DNA from: a virus
Virus record (IMG/VR): IMGVR_UViG_3300007735_000676
Location: 1-36,130 of that record
DNA: 36,130 nucleotides
Reading direction: 5' to 3' (one strand)
Shown in pieces: positions 2,436 through 34,570 of the stretch. The notes beneath the pieces are model-generated. The model was not told the DNA's origin. It did not search any database and worked only from the letters and a program-made list of their open reading frames with translations. Position 1 is the stretch's first letter, and every line of letters begins with the position of its first letter. The position numbers and the translations under genes were made by a program.

Positions 2436-4329
2436 AATAAGACCCTATTCTTTAAGTGAGATACAAGATTTAATAAATGATGCAAAGGAGCGTTACAAGT
2501 GGAGACACTCTTGGTTTCGTTCGCTTGAAACACTTTATCGTACTGGCAAGTCGATGCCTCTTTCAGAATCTACGGTAACTGGAACTGTCTTTGAACGTAT
2601 GCACCCTGCTGATTTTGAAACCATCAATATGGTTTTACCACATCTAAATATAATCTTAGCATCTGTGGTAGCTAGAGATCCTAAACCAATTGCTGTTCCT
2701 TATTCTGGTGGAGAAGATAGTGAGACTACTGCAAAGGTAGCTGAGGCAGTAGCAAGTTATTATTGGTTAAGAACAAATGCAACTTCTGTATTAAGAGATA
2801 TGGCACAAGATATGGTTGTCTTGGGTAATGGGTTTTGTAAGATAGGTTGGAAGCATAGTGTAGTTGAAACACCAAGAACACAAGAGGATATTACCAAAGA
2901 TCTCACAGGTGTTCTAAAATCTGAAGTTGTCCTAGCTGCTGAAGAAGGTAGAGATACTAATATACAAAATGTTGCAGACTTTGTATCTATCACAGATAAG
3001 AGAGTTGAAGCTGATGAACCTTATGTAGAGTATGTAAGTCCATACGATATTTTCTTTCCAGCTAATGCAAGAAGAATTGAAGAAACTCGTTGGGTAGCAC
3101 AACGTATTGTTCTACCTATTGATGAAATAAAAGCTAATCCAGTTTTGAAAAATACCAAAGACCTAATCAAAGATGGTGTAATGGATATTAGAGAAAGAGA
3201 TACTGGTCGTGGTGACCCATCAACAATTGAACCAATGATATATGAAACTGCAACTATCTATGAGTTCTATGATATGAGAACAAGAACATTAACAGTTACT
3301 CAATTAGGTTCAGAGAAACCATTATATCAAGGTGATATACCTTACTCACATAGACACGTTCCTTATGTTCACATGAGAAACTTCTCTGATGGTGGTCAAG
3401 AGATTTGGTCATTTGGTGATCTTGAAAACATTGCTTCATTACAAGAAAAACTAAATGAGACATTTACTGAACAAGTAGATAATATGAGAAGAGCTGGTAA
3501 TAAGTATGTTACTATTCGTGGTTTATTTGATAGTGAATCAAGAGATAGACTTGAAAGTGATGAACCAGATGTAGTTGTTGAAATGGAATCTGTATCAGGT
3601 ATAAATCCAAAAGATGCAATTACCGTATTACCAAGAGCTCCACTACCTGCAGATATTTACAATGCACAAAATAAATTTGAAGATGCAATGAGACAAGTTC
3701 TTGGTATAAATGATTTCCAAGCAGGTGGTCTTGGTGCTGATAGAATGTCTGCTTATGCCGCTGCTGTTGTTGATGGTGTAGCCACACTAAGAGCAAAAGA
3801 TAAACAACAGAGTGTTGAGAAAGCAGCAGCAAATATATTTAATCAGATAATTAGATTATGTCAAGAGTTTATGTTAGAGAATAGAGCAGTAAGATTAGTT
3901 GGTGTTAATGGTGGTATATGGGCTGATATTGATACTAGCGTTTTATCTGGTGAGTTTGATATGAGAGTTGAGGGTGGTTCTTTATCTGCTATAAATCCTG
4001 CAACAAGACAAGCAAGAGCTATTGAAATGCTTGGCACAATTGTTCCTGTGTTAAATACTTTTGGTTATAATACTGAACCAGCACTAAGACATATAGTTAG
4101 AGATTTAGGTTATGACCCTGATGTCTTCTTAGTAAAAGCAGCACCAGCACCAGAGACTATGTTACCACCTGAAGCAGGTGCAGTAACTCCATCACCTGAA
4201 GAAATTATTACATTATTAGGACAACAGACAGGTCAATTACCATTAACACCTGAAGAGCAATTACTTGCTGGTCCTGCTGAGTTATCACCAGAAATTGCAC
4301 CTGATGCAGGTCAAGCTGGACTAGTGTAA
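2425..4329 (+). CDS. portal protein (P22-like)
   Basis: 634 aa. It would form the dodecameric ring at one capsid vertex through which DNA enters and leaves. The order of predicted segments fits the long P22-type portal family: an N-terminal helical part, the MRNFSDGG...IWSFGDLENIASLQ central region, then FEDAMRQVLGINDFQAG and a helical stem (about residues 420-480). The C-terminal 70 residues are Pro/Glu-rich and probably flexible. The start is GTG at 2425 behind GAGGAG (2411-2416), inside the end of the large terminase gene. Position right after terL supports the call. Confidence 0.9.
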   Translation: MASKIRPYSLSEIQDLINDAKERYKWRHSWFRSLETLYRTGKSMPLSESTVTGTVFERMHPADFETINMVLPHLNIILASVVARDPKPIAVPYSGGEDSETTAKVAEAVASYYWLRTNATSVLRDMAQDMVVLGNGFCKIGWKHSVVETPRTQEDITKDLTGVLKSEVVLAAEEGRDTNIQNVADFVSITDKRVEADEPYVEYVSPYDIFFPANARRIEETRWVAQRIVLPIDEIKANPVLKNTKDLIKDGVMDIRERDTGRGDPSTIEPMIYETATIYEFYDMRTRTLTVTQLGSEKPLYQGDIPYSHRHVPYVHMRNFSDGGQEIWSFGDLENIASLQEKLNETFTEQVDNMRRAGNKYVTIRGLFDSESRDRLESDEPDVVVEMESVSGINPKDAITVLPRAPLPADIYNAQNKFEDAMRQVLGINDFQAGGLGADRMSAYAAAVVDGVATLRAKDKQQSVEKAAANIFNQIIRLCQEFMLENRAVRLVGVNGGIWADIDTSVLSGEFDMRVEGGSLSAINPATRQARAIEMLGTIVPVLNTFGYNTEPALRHIVRDLGYDPDVFLVKAAPAPETMLPPEAGAVTPSPEEIITLLGQQTGQLPLTPEEQLLAGPAELSPEIAPDAGQAGLV

Positions 4330-4334
4330 TAAAT

Positions 4335-4356
4335 CTGTCGGAACAAGACACATAAT
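4335..4356 (+). promoter_or_regulatory. composite promoter-like motif before the scaffold gene
   Basis: This copy contains both versions of the motif seen in the window: CTGTCGG at 4335-4341, and ACAAGACACATAAT at 4343-4356 whose CATAAT (4351-4356) would be the -10 element. CTGTCGG is separated from CATAAT by exactly nine bases. It starts six bases after the portal stop codon, so it could give the scaffold and capsid genes their own promoter. Confidence 0.5.
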
Positions 4357-4466
4357 TAGGAGAGTAGGTATCTTTATCCTACTTTCATAGCCGAACAAGC
4401 AAACTCTAATCGTAAATTCGAAAAACGACCCTAGAGGCTATGACACTCGGACAGGAGAAAAAGAAA
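4357..4466 (+). promoter_or_regulatory. structured 110-base leader of the scaffold/capsid unit
   Basis: No gene lies here. A hairpin with arms AGTAGG and CCTACT occupies about 4364-4383, and the 8-base arms TCATAGCC (4385-4392) and GGCTATGA (4436-4443) can pair across a 43-base loop. No T-run follows, so these do not look like simple terminators. They may control translation or RNA stability of the scaffold and capsid genes. This is inference from pairing only. Confidence 0.35.
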
Positions 4467-5498
4467 ATGACAGAGCAAGACAATTTCGAAAACCTATTTG
4501 AAGCAGCGTTATTAGAGCTGAATAAAACAACAGCTGAACAGCCAACTAATGAACCTGAGCAAGTAGAACAAACTGAACCTACTAATGTTGCTGAAGTAGC
4601 AACTGAAGTCACTGGAGAGACGGAAGTAGGTGAAGAAGAAGTTGAGACCTCTGTTGACAGCGAAGTAACAACTGACACTAAACCTATCGCTGTAACTGAA
4701 AATGATACTATCGTTCTTCCTGATGGCACTACGGTGTCTGTCAAGGAGGCAACGCTACGTCAAGCAGATTATACTCGCAAGACACAAGCGTTGGCTGAGG
4801 AGAAACGACAAATTGAAGCAGATCGGACTGCAGCCCAGTCTGCTGTAGATTATGTTGAGAACCTCACAAAAGCGTGGCAATCTAATCAGGCGGAAGTAGT
4901 AAGTGGATTTATCAGCTCCACAGATGATCCAACCTTAATCCTTTCGCAGGTTATCGTAGAATTAGCTAAGGCTGAAAAATTAGACCCTAAGTTTTTGGAA
5001 ACCTTTGGTATAACATCAGAGACCCAAGAGAAGTGGGCAACCGAAGCTAAAAGCCAAAATGAATTACAAAGTGTAAAAGCAAGACTTGAACGCTTTGAAA
5101 ATGAAAAAGCTCGTGAATTGCAATCTCAAAAAGAGAAAGAGCAAGAAGAGCAATTGGTTAAAGAATATGATAATCAATGGAAGAATATTGTAATTTCAAA
5201 CAATATAAAACTTGATCCTCAAAAGGAACTTGATTTGAAAATTGAAGTATTACAATATGCTCTCAATTATGGAATCCCAAATCTTGATGCCGCATGGAAA
5301 GCATTACAGTTTGAGAAATCCAAAACAGCAACACCAGCAGTCAATAAAAATAAAGCTGCTGTTGATGCAAAGAAGTTAGCTACAAATGCTATCACATCTA
5401 AATCAGCAGGTAAATCGGTAGTAACTAATAAGCCAATATCGAATATCGAAGATGCAGTGTGGCAGACATTTAATGAACTAACTAACAAGTCGAATTAA
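4467..5498 (+). CDS. capsid scaffolding protein
   Basis: 343 aa. It would guide assembly of the procapsid and then leave. The sequence is strongly charged, rich in Glu, Gln, Lys and Thr, with an acidic N-terminal half and long helical coiled-coil stretches (for example NELQSVKARLERFENEKARELQ), typical of scaffolds. It sits between portal and capsid genes. The frame is open from 4440, but the ATG at 4467 is the better start because AGGAG at 4453-4457 lies nine bases before it. No protease domain is seen. The call is by composition and place, as scaffolds conserve little sequence. Confidence 0.8.
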   Translation: MTEQDNFENLFEAALLELNKTTAEQPTNEPEQVEQTEPTNVAEVATEVTGETEVGEEEVETSVDSEVTTDTKPIAVTENDTIVLPDGTTVSVKEATLRQADYTRKTQALAEEKRQIEADRTAAQSAVDYVENLTKAWQSNQAEVVSGFISSTDDPTLILSQVIVELAKAEKLDPKFLETFGITSETQEKWATEAKSQNELQSVKARLERFENEKARELQSQKEKEQEEQLVKEYDNQWKNIVISNNIKLDPQKELDLKIEVLQYALNYGIPNLDAAWKALQFEKSKTATPAVNKNKAAVDAKKLATNAITSKSAGKSVVTNKPISNIEDAVWQTFNELTNKSN

Positions 5499-31072: not shown

Positions 31073-31225
31073 TTACTCTGTATCTTCTTTTACAATAGTT
31101 GCTACTTTCATTTTAACAATTCTCTTTTTCTTATCGTAGCAATCATAGCAAGTTAGTCTACTGGTATTATGTGATGTCATAAAGTATCTTAATCTACGGC
31201 AAGACTTACATTTATATGTTGGCAT
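31073..31225 (-). CDS. small zinc-ribbon protein
   Basis: 50 aa. CKSC near the N terminus and CYDC (residues about 26-29) form a two-knuckle zinc ribbon, followed by a Lys-rich helix. It overlaps the end of the WhiB gene by 14 bases and is 11 bases before the small membrane gene, so it fits the same operon. The ribosome site is poor. It could be a small nucleic-acid-binding regulator. Confidence 0.55.
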   Translation of the reverse strand: MPTYKCKSCRRLRYFMTSHNTSRLTCYDCYDKKKRIVKMKVATIVKEDTE

Positions 31226-31799
31226 TTTTTTTGTTTACCAATCTATAAATAACATGGTCATTTTTTATACATAGATATGAGTTATATTTTTTATAATTTA
31301 CCATGATTGTATTCATTGGTGCAACAACTAAATCATGTTCTTTACAGATAACATATTTACTAGTACGTTTTAATTTGTTTAGTTTAATTATTTTGTTTCT
31401 ATACATAGTTAGTTTATCGTCTATATTTTGTATAGATTTTTTTATTAGTTCTGTTGAGACATTGTATCTTTGATCTTTGTCTTCATATTTTTTTAGCTCT
31501 ACTCTTTGCACTGGTGTAGTTCCAGCAAAAAAACCATAACCTAAAAACCTTTCATTGTTATCTTCAAACATCATTATAGTATCAAGACATTGACGTCTTA
31601 CAGGACATTCAATACAACTTTTTTGTAACTTATGTTTAACTAATGTTTGATTAAACTTATTGCTATTAAATAATATATCACTATCATAGTCTTTACAATT
31701 AGCTTCAGTGACCCAATCTGGATCTATTGAAGTAGTTGCTTTTTCAAATTGTTCTAGAAATATATCTCTCTCATCTAAACCTTCTTGTTCTGTATTCAT
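31212..31799 (-). CDS. whiB-like: WhiB-family [4Fe-4S] transcription factor with extended C terminus
   Basis: 195 aa. The four cluster ligands are C35, C62, C65 and C71 (NCKDYDSD ... SCIECPVRRQC), followed by GYGFFAGTTPVQR in place of the usual G-[IV]-W-G-G turn. WhiB proteins bind the sigma region 4 of the main sigma factor and change promoter choice; phage copies, such as WhiB of phage TM4, can block host gene expression. After residue 105 a second part of about 90 residues contains CKEH and CIKNDH, possibly another metal site; most WhiB proteins end much earlier. It heads a four-gene operon. No ribosome site is visible; a 15-bp dyad lies just before the ATG. Confidence 0.85.
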   Translation of the reverse strand: MNTEQEGLDERDIFLEQFEKATTSIDPDWVTEANCKDYDSDILFNSNKFNQTLVKHKLQKSCIECPVRRQCLDTIMMFEDNNERFLGYGFFAGTTPVQRVELKKYEDKDQRYNVSTELIKKSIQNIDDKLTMYRNKIIKLNKLKRTSKYVICKEHDLVVAPMNTIMVNYKKYNSYLCIKNDHVIYRLVNKKNANI

Positions 31800-31905: not shown

Positions 31906-32295
31906 TTATTCATTGAAACCTTTTACTAACCAATCAACAACTGGTACAGCTACTGCATTACCCATTTGCTTGTATCGGTTACTGTCAGCCATTGTGCTTG
32001 TCCAGTCATCTGGAAATCCTTGTAGTCTTTCACACTCTTTGGGTGTTAGTCTTCTTACTTGTTTCTTTGCAACCATTGGAACATTATTACCACCAGTTCC
32101 CATCTGTGCAGTTAGTGTGTTAATAACATCAGTTTGTATTCTTGCACCATCTTGTTGATGTGGTTTGAATACTATTGTTGTTGCTCTTGTATCTCCTTTG
32201 TCAAATGAATTTAGTGTTGGCACAACACCACCCTCTTTCCATGTTTCATTATCTTCATTAGTTTGAGCTCTTTTACTTTTGTTGAACCACGTCAT
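31906..32295 (-). CDS. C5 cytosine methyltransferase, C-terminal part (target recognition and motifs IX-X)
   Basis: 129 aa. VRRLTPKECERLQGFPDDWT and RYKQMGNAVAVPVV are motifs IX and X of DNA cytosine-5 methyltransferases; the first half (WFNKSKRAQTNEDNETW, VVPTLNSFDKGDTRATT) belongs to the variable target-recognition part. The ATG at 32295 lies 23 bases inside the end of the N-terminal gene, in another frame. Either this is a natural two-subunit enzyme, as in M.AquI where two overlapping genes encode the halves, or one gene broken by a frameshift. A modest AGAG site lies before the ATG, which mildly supports separate translation. Confidence 0.8.
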   Translation of the reverse strand: MTWFNKSKRAQTNEDNETWKEGGVVPTLNSFDKGDTRATTIVFKPHQQDGARIQTDVINTLTAQMGTGGNNVPMVAKKQVRRLTPKECERLQGFPDDWTSTMADSNRYKQMGNAVAVPVVDWLVKGFNE

Positions 32296-33046
32296 TATTA
32301 TTCTCTATCACTAGCATACCAGTATTAACATCTTGATTTGTAATAGAACTCTTATGATATAACTCAGCTGGGATACAATTACATATATCTTTATTGTTAG
32401 CTAGTTCTTTGCTTGACTCTCCAAAGCTTTCTGCAACTTCTCTGGTAGTGTCTTGCCCCTGCGGTTTGCTCTGCGTAGTATTCCCTGACACGCTACCTCG
32501 CTCAAATAATACTTTGAAGATACGCTCTGTTCCAGAACGGCTGCCAACGATGAAGACACGCCGCCTTCGTTGGGGAACTCCGAAGTATTGTGCATCAAAC
32601 ACACGCCATCCGACACTATACCCGAGCTCAGCCAACGACCCGAGTACGATTCCAAAGTCTTTTCCTCCGTTACTTGAAAGAAGACCGGGTACATTTTCGA
32701 GGATGAAGTTTTCGCTTTTCGTTTCTTCCAAAAGTCTATGAGCTTCCCAGAATAACCCGCTTCTCGAGCCAGATAGACCAGCCCTTTTTCCAGCCACGCT
32801 AAGGTCTTGGCAGGGAAATCCTCCTGTGATAATTCCATTTGTAGGGTTGAATCCATCATTGATTAAGTCCTTTCCTTTGACTTCTTTTATATCTGTGTAT
32901 CGCTTGGTATTTGGAAAATGTAGAGCTAATACTTCATTACATTTTTTATCTATCTCTACACTTGCTACTACATCATAACCATTATTACGTAATGCTAAAT
33001 CAAATCCACCGACACCTGCAAATAAAGATACTGCTGTTAGTTTCAC
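32273..33046 (-). CDS. C5 cytosine methyltransferase, N-terminal catalytic part
   Basis: 257 aa. Motif I is FAGVGGFD (9-16), motif IV GGFPCQD with catalytic C79, motif VI ENV (117-119) and motif VIII QRRRRVF (159-165). It transfers a methyl group from AdoMet to cytosine C5, probably to protect phage DNA from host nucleases or to regulate it. Motifs IX and X are missing here and lie in the overlapping gene at 31906-32295. The start is GTG at 33046 without a ribosome site, exactly seven bases after a GACACATA box, so the mRNA may be leaderless. A second frame is open across most of this gene. Confidence 0.88.
   Translation of the reverse strand: MKLTAVSLFAGVGGFDLALRNNGYDVVASVEIDKKCNEVLALHFPNTKRYTDIKEVKGKDLINDGFNPTNGIITGGFPCQDLSVAGKRAGLSGSRSGLFWEAHRLLEETKSENFILENVPGLLSSNGGKDFGIVLGSLAELGYSVGWRVFDAQYFGVPQRRRRVFIVGSRSGTERIFKVLFERGSVSGNTTQSKPQGQDTTREVAESFGESSKELANNKDICNCIPAELYHKSSITNQDVNTGMLVIENNNDVVQQK
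32401..32859 (-). CDS. overprinted ORF inside the C5 methyltransferase gene
   Basis: 152 aa, fully inside the methyltransferase catalytic gene in another frame, the same frame as its C-terminal half. It has its own good ribosome site, AAAGGA eight bases before the ATG at 32859. LSEVACQGILRRANRRGKTLPEKL near the C terminus (split here: LSEVACQGILRR, ANRRGKTLPEKL) is a pattern I recall from other phage and bacterial proteins, many of which also overlap C5 methyltransferases. G+C in the overlap is about 43-58% per 60-base line, against 32% just upstream, as expected if two frames limit drift. Function is unknown; a methyltransferase partner is possible. Confidence 0.6.
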   Translation of the reverse strand: MMDSTLQMELSQEDFPAKTLAWLEKGLVYLAREAGYSGKLIDFWKKRKAKTSSSKMYPVFFQVTEEKTLESYSGRWLSSGIVSDGVCLMHNTSEFPNEGGVSSSLAAVLEQSVSSKYYLSEVACQGILRRANRRGKTLPEKLQKALESQAKN

Positions 33047-33049
33047 ATC

Positions 33050-33065
33050 ATTATATGTGTCTTAC
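33050..33065 (-). promoter_or_regulatory. GACA-type promoter-like motif at the C5 methyltransferase start
   Basis: Read on the minus strand: GTAAGACACATATAAT. The box GACACATA ends seven bases before the GTG start at 33046, which fits a leaderless transcript. It lies between the two methyltransferase genes. Confidence 0.55.
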
Positions 33066-34570
33066 AATTCTAGTTGCTCTTGCTTAGCTTTTTCTTTTAC
33101 TTCTTTTCTTGCCCATGCTACTCTACCTTTTATGATAGGTAGATAATCCTCTGTCATCTCGCAACCTTTCCATTCAAAGCCATCAAGTATTGCAGCTACT
33201 GCTGTTGTACCTGAACCTAAGAAAGGATCTAATACAGTTCCTTTGGGTGGTGTGATCAGCTTGATTAGATACCTCATTAGTTCAATTGGTTTAACTGTTG
33301 GGTGGAAGTTGGCAGTTGGTTTATTTCTATCGTTACCTTTTGCTACATCTTCTGTATAACCTTTTGCATTACTACCACCGGGTTTCTTTTCTAAGTTATC
33401 TAATCCTGCATTGCGTTCTTTCTTACCTGCTTTGGCTTGATAGATAAATGGGGTAATGTCATCTGCTGGTGTCCATTGGGAGTTGTGGAAGAAGCGTGAT
33501 GCTCCGCCTGTATCGCTGTAAAATGTAGCACCATCATCACCTCTTTGCTCATAGTCACCATAGATACCTCTACTCTTACCACTGTGTCCTGATTTAACAG
33601 GAGCAAACGCACCAGCATTACCACTCTGTTGGTTTAGTGTGGCTACTGGGCAGTTGGGTGTGCAGGTATATGTGGTTGTTGTGATTGGTGTTGCTTCTGT
33701 ATTAGCTCTATTAGTTCCCCAACCTTCTGATTGTTTTGTATTTTCAAATGATATATTTTGTGCAACATCTTCATTATTTGTGCCAGTTGCTTGGCAGTCG
33801 TGGTTGTGTGTGAGTAGTGTGTTAGCTGGGAAGCGACCTTTAAGGTAATCATCTGTGACACTGCCCCTTATTTTACTAGCATTCATACCTGCGTTTGGAG
33901 ATATATCGTTATACTCAGTTGGTTTTCTATATAACTCTTTTGTATTACTAGTACCAATCCTTGTAGCATCAATGTTAATACCACCTGTCTTATATTGCAA
34001 TACATTCTCTGCGACAGTTCCTATGAGTGGCTTCCTAGCTAGGACAATTGGTTCATGTGATGGTTTTAGGGCAGTTCCCCAGCCTTGCCATTGCTTGGCT
34101 TCTTTGGTTGATGGTGCTGTGATTGATACATCTGCTGTCTTGCTACCTGCTGTGAAGTTACCGCCTTGCATACCTACATTGGTGCGTTGTGTTCCAACTA
34201 CCTTACGCTCTGCCTTAGCTGCTTTATCAATAGCCTTACTTATATCTAAACTCTTTGGAAAGCCACTACCATAGGTCCAATGAATACTATCTCTGATCTC
34301 AAACCCAGCATCCTCAATTGCTACTGACATACGATGATAGGTTCTTGTACCACCAAATGCAAGTAGATGACCACCTGGTTTTAATACTCTTAAACATTCT
34401 TGCCATAGAGATACTTGATATGCTACACCTGAGTTGTCCCACTCCTTGCCCATAAAACCTAACTCATAAGGTGGATCAGTAACTATACTATCTATGCTGT
34501 CATCTGGTAATGTCTTTAATGTATCTAGGCAATTGCCTACTAATAATCTTTGTTCAATGTAATCACTCAC
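33062..34570 (-). CDS. DNA N6-adenine or N4-cytosine methyltransferase (beta class)
   Basis: 502 aa. The catalytic motif IV DPPY (32-35) comes first, then a long target-recognition part, then the AdoMet-binding motif DPFLGSGTT (448-456), the order of the beta class (N6_N4_Mtase family). HPTVKPIELMRYLI just before motif I is also typical. It would methylate adenine N6 or cytosine N4 at a specific site; no restriction enzyme is nearby, so it is an orphan, probably protective. About 250 residues between the motifs are longer than usual. The GTG start at 34570 has no ribosome site and follows a GACACATA box by seven bases, which suggests a leaderless mRNA. Confidence 0.9.
   Translation of the reverse strand: MSDYIEQRLLVGNCLDTLKTLPDDSIDSIVTDPPYELGFMGKEWDNSGVAYQVSLWQECLRVLKPGGHLLAFGGTRTYHRMSVAIEDAGFEIRDSIHWTYGSGFPKSLDISKAIDKAAKAERKVVGTQRTNVGMQGGNFTAGSKTADVSITAPSTKEAKQWQGWGTALKPSHEPIVLARKPLIGTVAENVLQYKTGGINIDATRIGTSNTKELYRKPTEYNDISPNAGMNASKIRGSVTDDYLKGRFPANTLLTHNHDCQATGTNNEDVAQNISFENTKQSEGWGTNRANTEATPITTTTYTCTPNCPVATLNQQSGNAGAFAPVKSGHSGKSRGIYGDYEQRGDDGATFYSDTGGASRFFHNSQWTPADDITPFIYQAKAGKKERNAGLDNLEKKPGGSNAKGYTEDVAKGNDRNKPTANFHPTVKPIELMRYLIKLITPPKGTVLDPFLGSGTTAVAAILDGFEWKGCEMTEDYLPIIKGRVAWARKEVKEKAKQEQLEL

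Follow-up and report, generated by a model that had tools for sequence, protein, structure and literature searches.

A conserved gene nested in the +1 frame of phage C5 methyltransferases, probably encoding a small second subunit

Overprinted genes and C5 methyltransferases made of two chains are both kinds already known. Long same-strand nested genes that are conserved across phyla are, to our knowledge, rare. In M.EcoHK31I, a small ORF overlaps the large ORF in another frame. For M.AquI, we know of no nested third chain. Both M.AquI and M.EcoHK31I work as two chains, and in M.EcoHK31I the large chain comprises motifs I–VIII and X and the small chain motif IX (PMC3404938). Split M.SssI complemented best with the break point placed after motif VIII and before the recognition domain (PMC3404938).

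The window analysed here is the whole 36,130-nt stretch of viral DNA (IMG/VR record IMGVR_UViG_3300007735_000676), and positions without a locus name refer to it. It encodes a C5 cytosine methyltransferase on the minus strand, with motifs I, IV, VI, VIII, IX and X all present across two ORFs (Pfam DNA_methylase, 4.2e-55 and 1.6e-17). The enzyme is split after motif VIII and the two ORFs overlap by 23 nt, a point absent from the first-pass annotation. That annotation had proposed a 152-codon frame with its own AAAGGA site inside the catalytic part of the methyltransferase. We located this frame at 32401–32859 on the minus strand, overlapping the stronger DNA_methylase match (4.2e-55); it is the +1 frame of the methyltransferase N-part and runs over motifs IV–VIII. 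The features are:

31906..32295, minus strand: C-part of the C5 methyltransferase, 129 aa, with motifs IX and X, in another frame
32273..33046, minus strand: N-part of the C5 methyltransferase, 257 aa, GTG start, with motifs I, IV (PCQ), VI (ENV) and VIII (QRRRR)
32401..32859, minus strand: nested +1-frame gene P0001, 152 aa (ORF with ATG start, conserved in >170 loci, synonymous constraint)
32868..32873, minus strand: AAAGGA, a putative ribosome-binding site separated by 8 nt from the nested ATG (sequence, Shine-Dalgarno energy of nested starts)
32458..32586, minus strand: nested residues 92–134, match to the canonical post-motif-VIII module (FxFPkeepLekrLkDvLedevdeKYyls; 30.5 bits, gapless over 43 aa)
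32407..32532, minus strand: nested residues 110–151, predicted C-terminal helical domain (AlphaFold2, pLDDT 90–98)

As in M.AquI, the main enzyme of the window is split after motif VIII into a I–VIII and a IX–X ORF. Relatives need not share this split: L006 has an unsplit methyltransferase, a single chain of 357 aa, and retains the nested ORF (161 aa, 77% identical). Splits like that of the window occurred in L001 (phage Dove) and L007, and none in the close relative L006. The likeness to M.EcoHK31I (YGGCCR) is that one C5 methyltransferase would be formed from two chains, with the second chain in an overlapping frame. By the described motif layout, however, the nested chain of the window differs in carrying the post-VIII module and no motif IX, and motifs IX and X are in an ORF of their own (31906–32295, same strand). 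Since the nested chain lacks motif IX, it was not classed as a member of the M.EcoHK31I type. Around the methyltransferase, a WhiB-like transcription factor (31212–31799, minus strand; Pfam Whib, 1e-8) pointed to an actinobacterial host, and the neighbouring N4/N6 methyltransferase (33062–34570, minus strand) resembled its counterpart in L006 (904–2298) at both ends and differed from it in the middle.

PHROG 16143, with orf14 of Streptococcus phage MM1, represents the same nested frame and the same family as the window's ORF; P0001 matched phrog_16143 with E = 2.5e-8 over residues 50–123, and 10 of 12 relatives matched it as well, the MM1 protein at 5e-82. In the MM1 record, orf14 is entered as 'C5 methyltransferase beta subunit'. 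Such annotation is occasional only, and most records, that of the phage P1 dmt gene included, show none. Comparison of the nested protein with Pfam, NCBIfam and PDB sequences gave no match above chance.

In 177 of 179 loci found by means of the nested frame, the nested match lay within a methyltransferase ORF and in its +1 frame. Two loci deviated: in L010 an ordinary methyltransferase was matched in its own frame, and in L142 two indels fuse the nested and main frames. The latter (MAG contig, 2685–4482) was left out of account, since it may be an assembly error or a case of decay; its methyltransferase frame, joined by the nested frame, had no in-frame motif VIII. Because these loci had been chosen by the nested frame, a second set of 80 was chosen by the methyltransferase frame only, and thus gathered to remove ASCERTAINMENT. 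A nested homologue was present in 79 of the 80, a figure that describes this clade and not all C5 methyltransferases, as these loci are the query's closest relatives. The remaining locus, L251, had a 296-codon +1 ORF of a second class, described below.

With the nested protein as the query, tblastn matched 226 phage records, including Streptococcus, Vibrio and Mycobacterium phages, Escherichia phage P1 (dmt), and Roseobacter and Caulobacter phages. A relative from Virus Rctr41k matched 573 plasmid records, mostly in Escherichia. Profile-led scans confirmed at least 592 stretches in viral contigs (592 of the 600 listed) and 413 in bacterial genomes. In phage P1 dmt (L017, 1516–2004) the nested ORF was present with 163 codons from stop to stop, and is unannotated in AF234172. 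Selection has maintained the nested protein in hundreds of phages and prophages, the bacterial hosts of which differ widely.

An open frame of this length was not expected by chance. When the methyltransferase codons were resampled under an unchanged protein sequence, 7.9 stops were expected in the nested frame and none of 1000 resamplings left it open; when the region's own synonymous codons were permuted, the probability of an open frame was 0.003. The conservation of the +1 frame might still be only apparent, a by-product of the conserved methyltransferase protein and of codon bias. Synonymous nulls do reach about 20–33 bits against the nested profile, and other frames look conserved too. 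When sequence clusters were left out of the profile, however, real nested frames scored a mean of 114 bits, against 21 bits for resampled and 33 bits for permuted synonymous nulls, and 25 of 25 real frames scored above all their nulls. Other frames also exceeded their synonymous nulls, since the nucleotides are constrained, with smaller gains than the nested frame. The third frame was open in none of the 177 loci.

Synonymous sites were compared in 13,171 pairs of <55% identity, counting the sites with the same amino acid and relating observed to expected codon identity (O/E). The O/E was 1.73 inside the overlap and 1.03 outside it. The rise began at the nested start and stopped at the nested stop. 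In the set selected by the main frame, O/E was 1.01–1.09 up to window position 32896, 1.15–2.8 inside the overlap, and returned towards 1.0–1.3 past the nested stop. Control C5 methyltransferases (80 loci, 53 of them without a nested ORF) stayed near 1.0 throughout. In pairs of 60–90% identity, the third position of main codons, which is nested position 2, diverged by 0.616 outside the overlap and 0.339 inside it. Divergence fell from 0.249 to 0.166 at main position 2 (nested 1), and only from 0.315 to 0.273 at main position 1 (nested 3). The drop was thus greatest at the base that is the second codon position of the nested frame, a bias that points to the +1 frame in particular. The close pair of the window and L006 showed 0.12 differences at 4-fold sites in the overlap and 0.20 outside it, based on few sites. 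Constraint was weak over the N-terminal half of the nested protein (O/E about 1.1–1.35).

The by-product reading is already contradicted by the synonymous constraint in both locus sets together with the codon-position bias: in pairs of <55% identity the constraint is sharply bounded by the two ends of the ORF, and the controls lack it. We give this reading next to no credence. Raised conservation in all frames would also fit if the synonymous constraint came from an element in the RNA or DNA and not from a protein. Such an element would have to span about 450 nt with its edges at a start and a stop codon, follow the nested codon in its position bias, and leave the frame open everywhere, and we regard it as extremely improbable. 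The two checks proposed in the first-pass annotation, whether the +1 frame stays open in homologues and whether synonymous change is reduced across the overlap, thus both came out in favour of its conserved pair of genes in one stretch of DNA: the frame was open and homologous in both locus sets, and synonymous change was reduced across the overlap, at background at its ends and unreduced in the controls. On these comparisons, we consider a real, ancient dual-coding gene to be nearly certain.

Base composition was a less general indicator. The G+C counts made by hand in the first-pass annotation (28, 28, 35, 32, 26 and 19 of 60) were exact, and the local rise had been ascribed to dual coding. 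This held in AT-rich and mid-GC relatives, in which G+C over the overlap rose by 9% (rest <40% GC) and 5% (rest 40–50% GC), and failed in GC-rich relatives, in which the rise was absent. As the rise is not general at high GC, it is a consequence of dual coding but no proof of it.

The C-terminal half of the nested protein resembled a segment that ordinary enzymes carry in their main frame. A profile of this module was built only from ordinary C5 methyltransferases without a nested ORF, from the segment after motif VIII (consensus FQFPKEEPLEKRLKDVLEDEVDEKYYLSEKK), which corresponds to about 180–215 of M.HhaI, between motif VIII and the recognition domain. Against the nested proteins, the module profile scored above all their own synonymous nulls in 177 of 177 cases. 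Conversely, the nested profile gave 37 matches of >8 bits in ordinary enzymes, all at one site after motif VIII, and none of >8 bits in 800 shuffled proteins. Of 60 enzymes without a nested ORF, 56 had the module in the main frame and 0 had it in the +1 frame. Of 265 nested-bearing enzymes, 226 had it in the +1 frame, a count that holds partly by construction since enzymes were labelled nested-bearing by means of the nested profile; 38 of the 265 nested proteins scored below the module cut-off. Only one of the 265 had the module in the main frame, and this near-absence is not by construction. No enzyme out of 351 had it in both frames. Placement exclusive to one frame suggests that the nested chain is a second subunit and provides in trans a part that ordinary enzymes hold in cis. 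The module match in the nested frame partly overlaps the DNA of the main-frame motif VIII, so that shared descent from both is impossible and at least the FP part of the match must be convergent.

The first-pass annotation had noted a likeness of the C-terminus to other phage proteins. The likeness is real: in a very large family, conservation is highest in LSxxACxGILRRAxRRGKxLPxxL. A long C-terminal tail, ILRRAxRRGKxLPxxLxxAL, extends past the canonical module. The N-terminal half was modelled poorly by AlphaFold2 (pLDDT about 50–65), and a Foldseek search with the model of the nested protein found no related solved fold (best E 4.2). That the most conserved part (LSxxACxGILRRAxRRGKxLP) reaches past the module and is basic and helical would suit a genuine overprinted gene whose function is separate from that of the methyltransferase, such as control of the enzyme's activity or timing, or counter-defence. 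Against such independence, all 177 validated nested copies lay inside a methyltransferase with no free-standing copy seen, and the module was in the main or the +1 frame, never in both. We therefore regard an independent function as conceivable and rather unlikely.

The position of the module also bears on how the nested frame is translated. In the DNA, the displaced module follows directly behind motif VIII (offset 25 nt), as it does in frame in ordinary enzymes. Ribosomal frameshifting into the +1 frame after motif VIII could thus give an alternative ending, I–VIII plus module, and no separate protein. The product would lack motifs IX–X, however, and both the constraint and the open +1 frame extend upstream by roughly another 90 codons, as far as a start codon that has a Shine-Dalgarno site. 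In the window, the minus strand 5' of the nested start reads AAAGGAAAGGACTTAATCA-ATG; AAAGGAAAGGAC precedes the ATG, and the AAAGGA named in the first-pass annotation indeed ends 8 nt before it. Shine-Dalgarno pairing was better at nested starts (−7.2 kcal/mol) than at control positions (−5.7 kcal/mol), which supports production of a second protein. Frameshifting appears improbable on these grounds.

A second class of phage methyltransferases (L266, L359, L361, L251 and L363) had a +1 ORF of 200–300 codons whose end, NPxWxEWLMGYPxGWT, resembled motif IX; motif X stayed in the main frame. This is the layout reported for M.EcoHK31I (PMC3404938). In phage GreedyLawyer (L262, ORFs 1526–2185 and 1189–1716), the main ORF ended after motif VIII and the overlapping +1 ORF had both IX and X. 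PHROG 1008, of mycobacteriophage-type C5 methyltransferases, likewise represents a +1 ORF within such an enzyme (L262, 3.6e-78), but with another C-terminus, the motif-IX-like sequence, joined in L262 by motif X. P0001 matched phrog_1008 weakly, at 20 bits; as synonymous nulls that conserve only the methyltransferase also reach 20 bits against the nested profile, the match was not taken as homology. The second class and the enzyme of the window fell in one clade of the enzyme tree (100/99), so different lineages seem to have displaced different segments.

The comparisons show a real, ancient and separately initiated +1 gene on motifs IV–VIII in the window. We think it probable that its protein would be a small second (beta-like) subunit; we infer this role from the post-VIII segment that the nested chain may supply in trans. 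The large chain would bind AdoMet and provide the catalytic Cys. The C-terminal half of the nested chain would contribute the helix-loop segment that elsewhere lies in cis between motif VIII and the target-recognition domain, and would complete or stabilise the hinge beside the recognition domain, while its N-terminal half would be new sequence made by the alternative frame. Two chains from one stretch of DNA would thus form one enzyme, as in M.EcoHK31I. As to origin, we can only speculate that an indel behind motif VIII shifted the segment out of the main frame and that an upstream start in the new frame kept it alive; convergence is a possible alternative. The enzyme tree, the root of which is arbitrary, required at least two to three changes. 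More tentatively, a very large class of phage C5 methyltransferases may be two-subunit enzymes with the second subunit in the +1 frame of the first, in which a conserved segment (the post-VIII module in some lineages, motif IX with or without X in others) was displaced and then supplied in trans.

A literature search returned no description of a nested gene in phage methyltransferases, of its spread, of its function, of selection on it or of its exclusive module, which is weak evidence of absence. The gene is largely missing from annotation, phage P1 included, and offers a well-controlled case of two proteins sharing the same DNA. A further prediction is that a subunit has been missed: some phage C5 methyltransferases could look inactive if the annotated chain is expressed alone.
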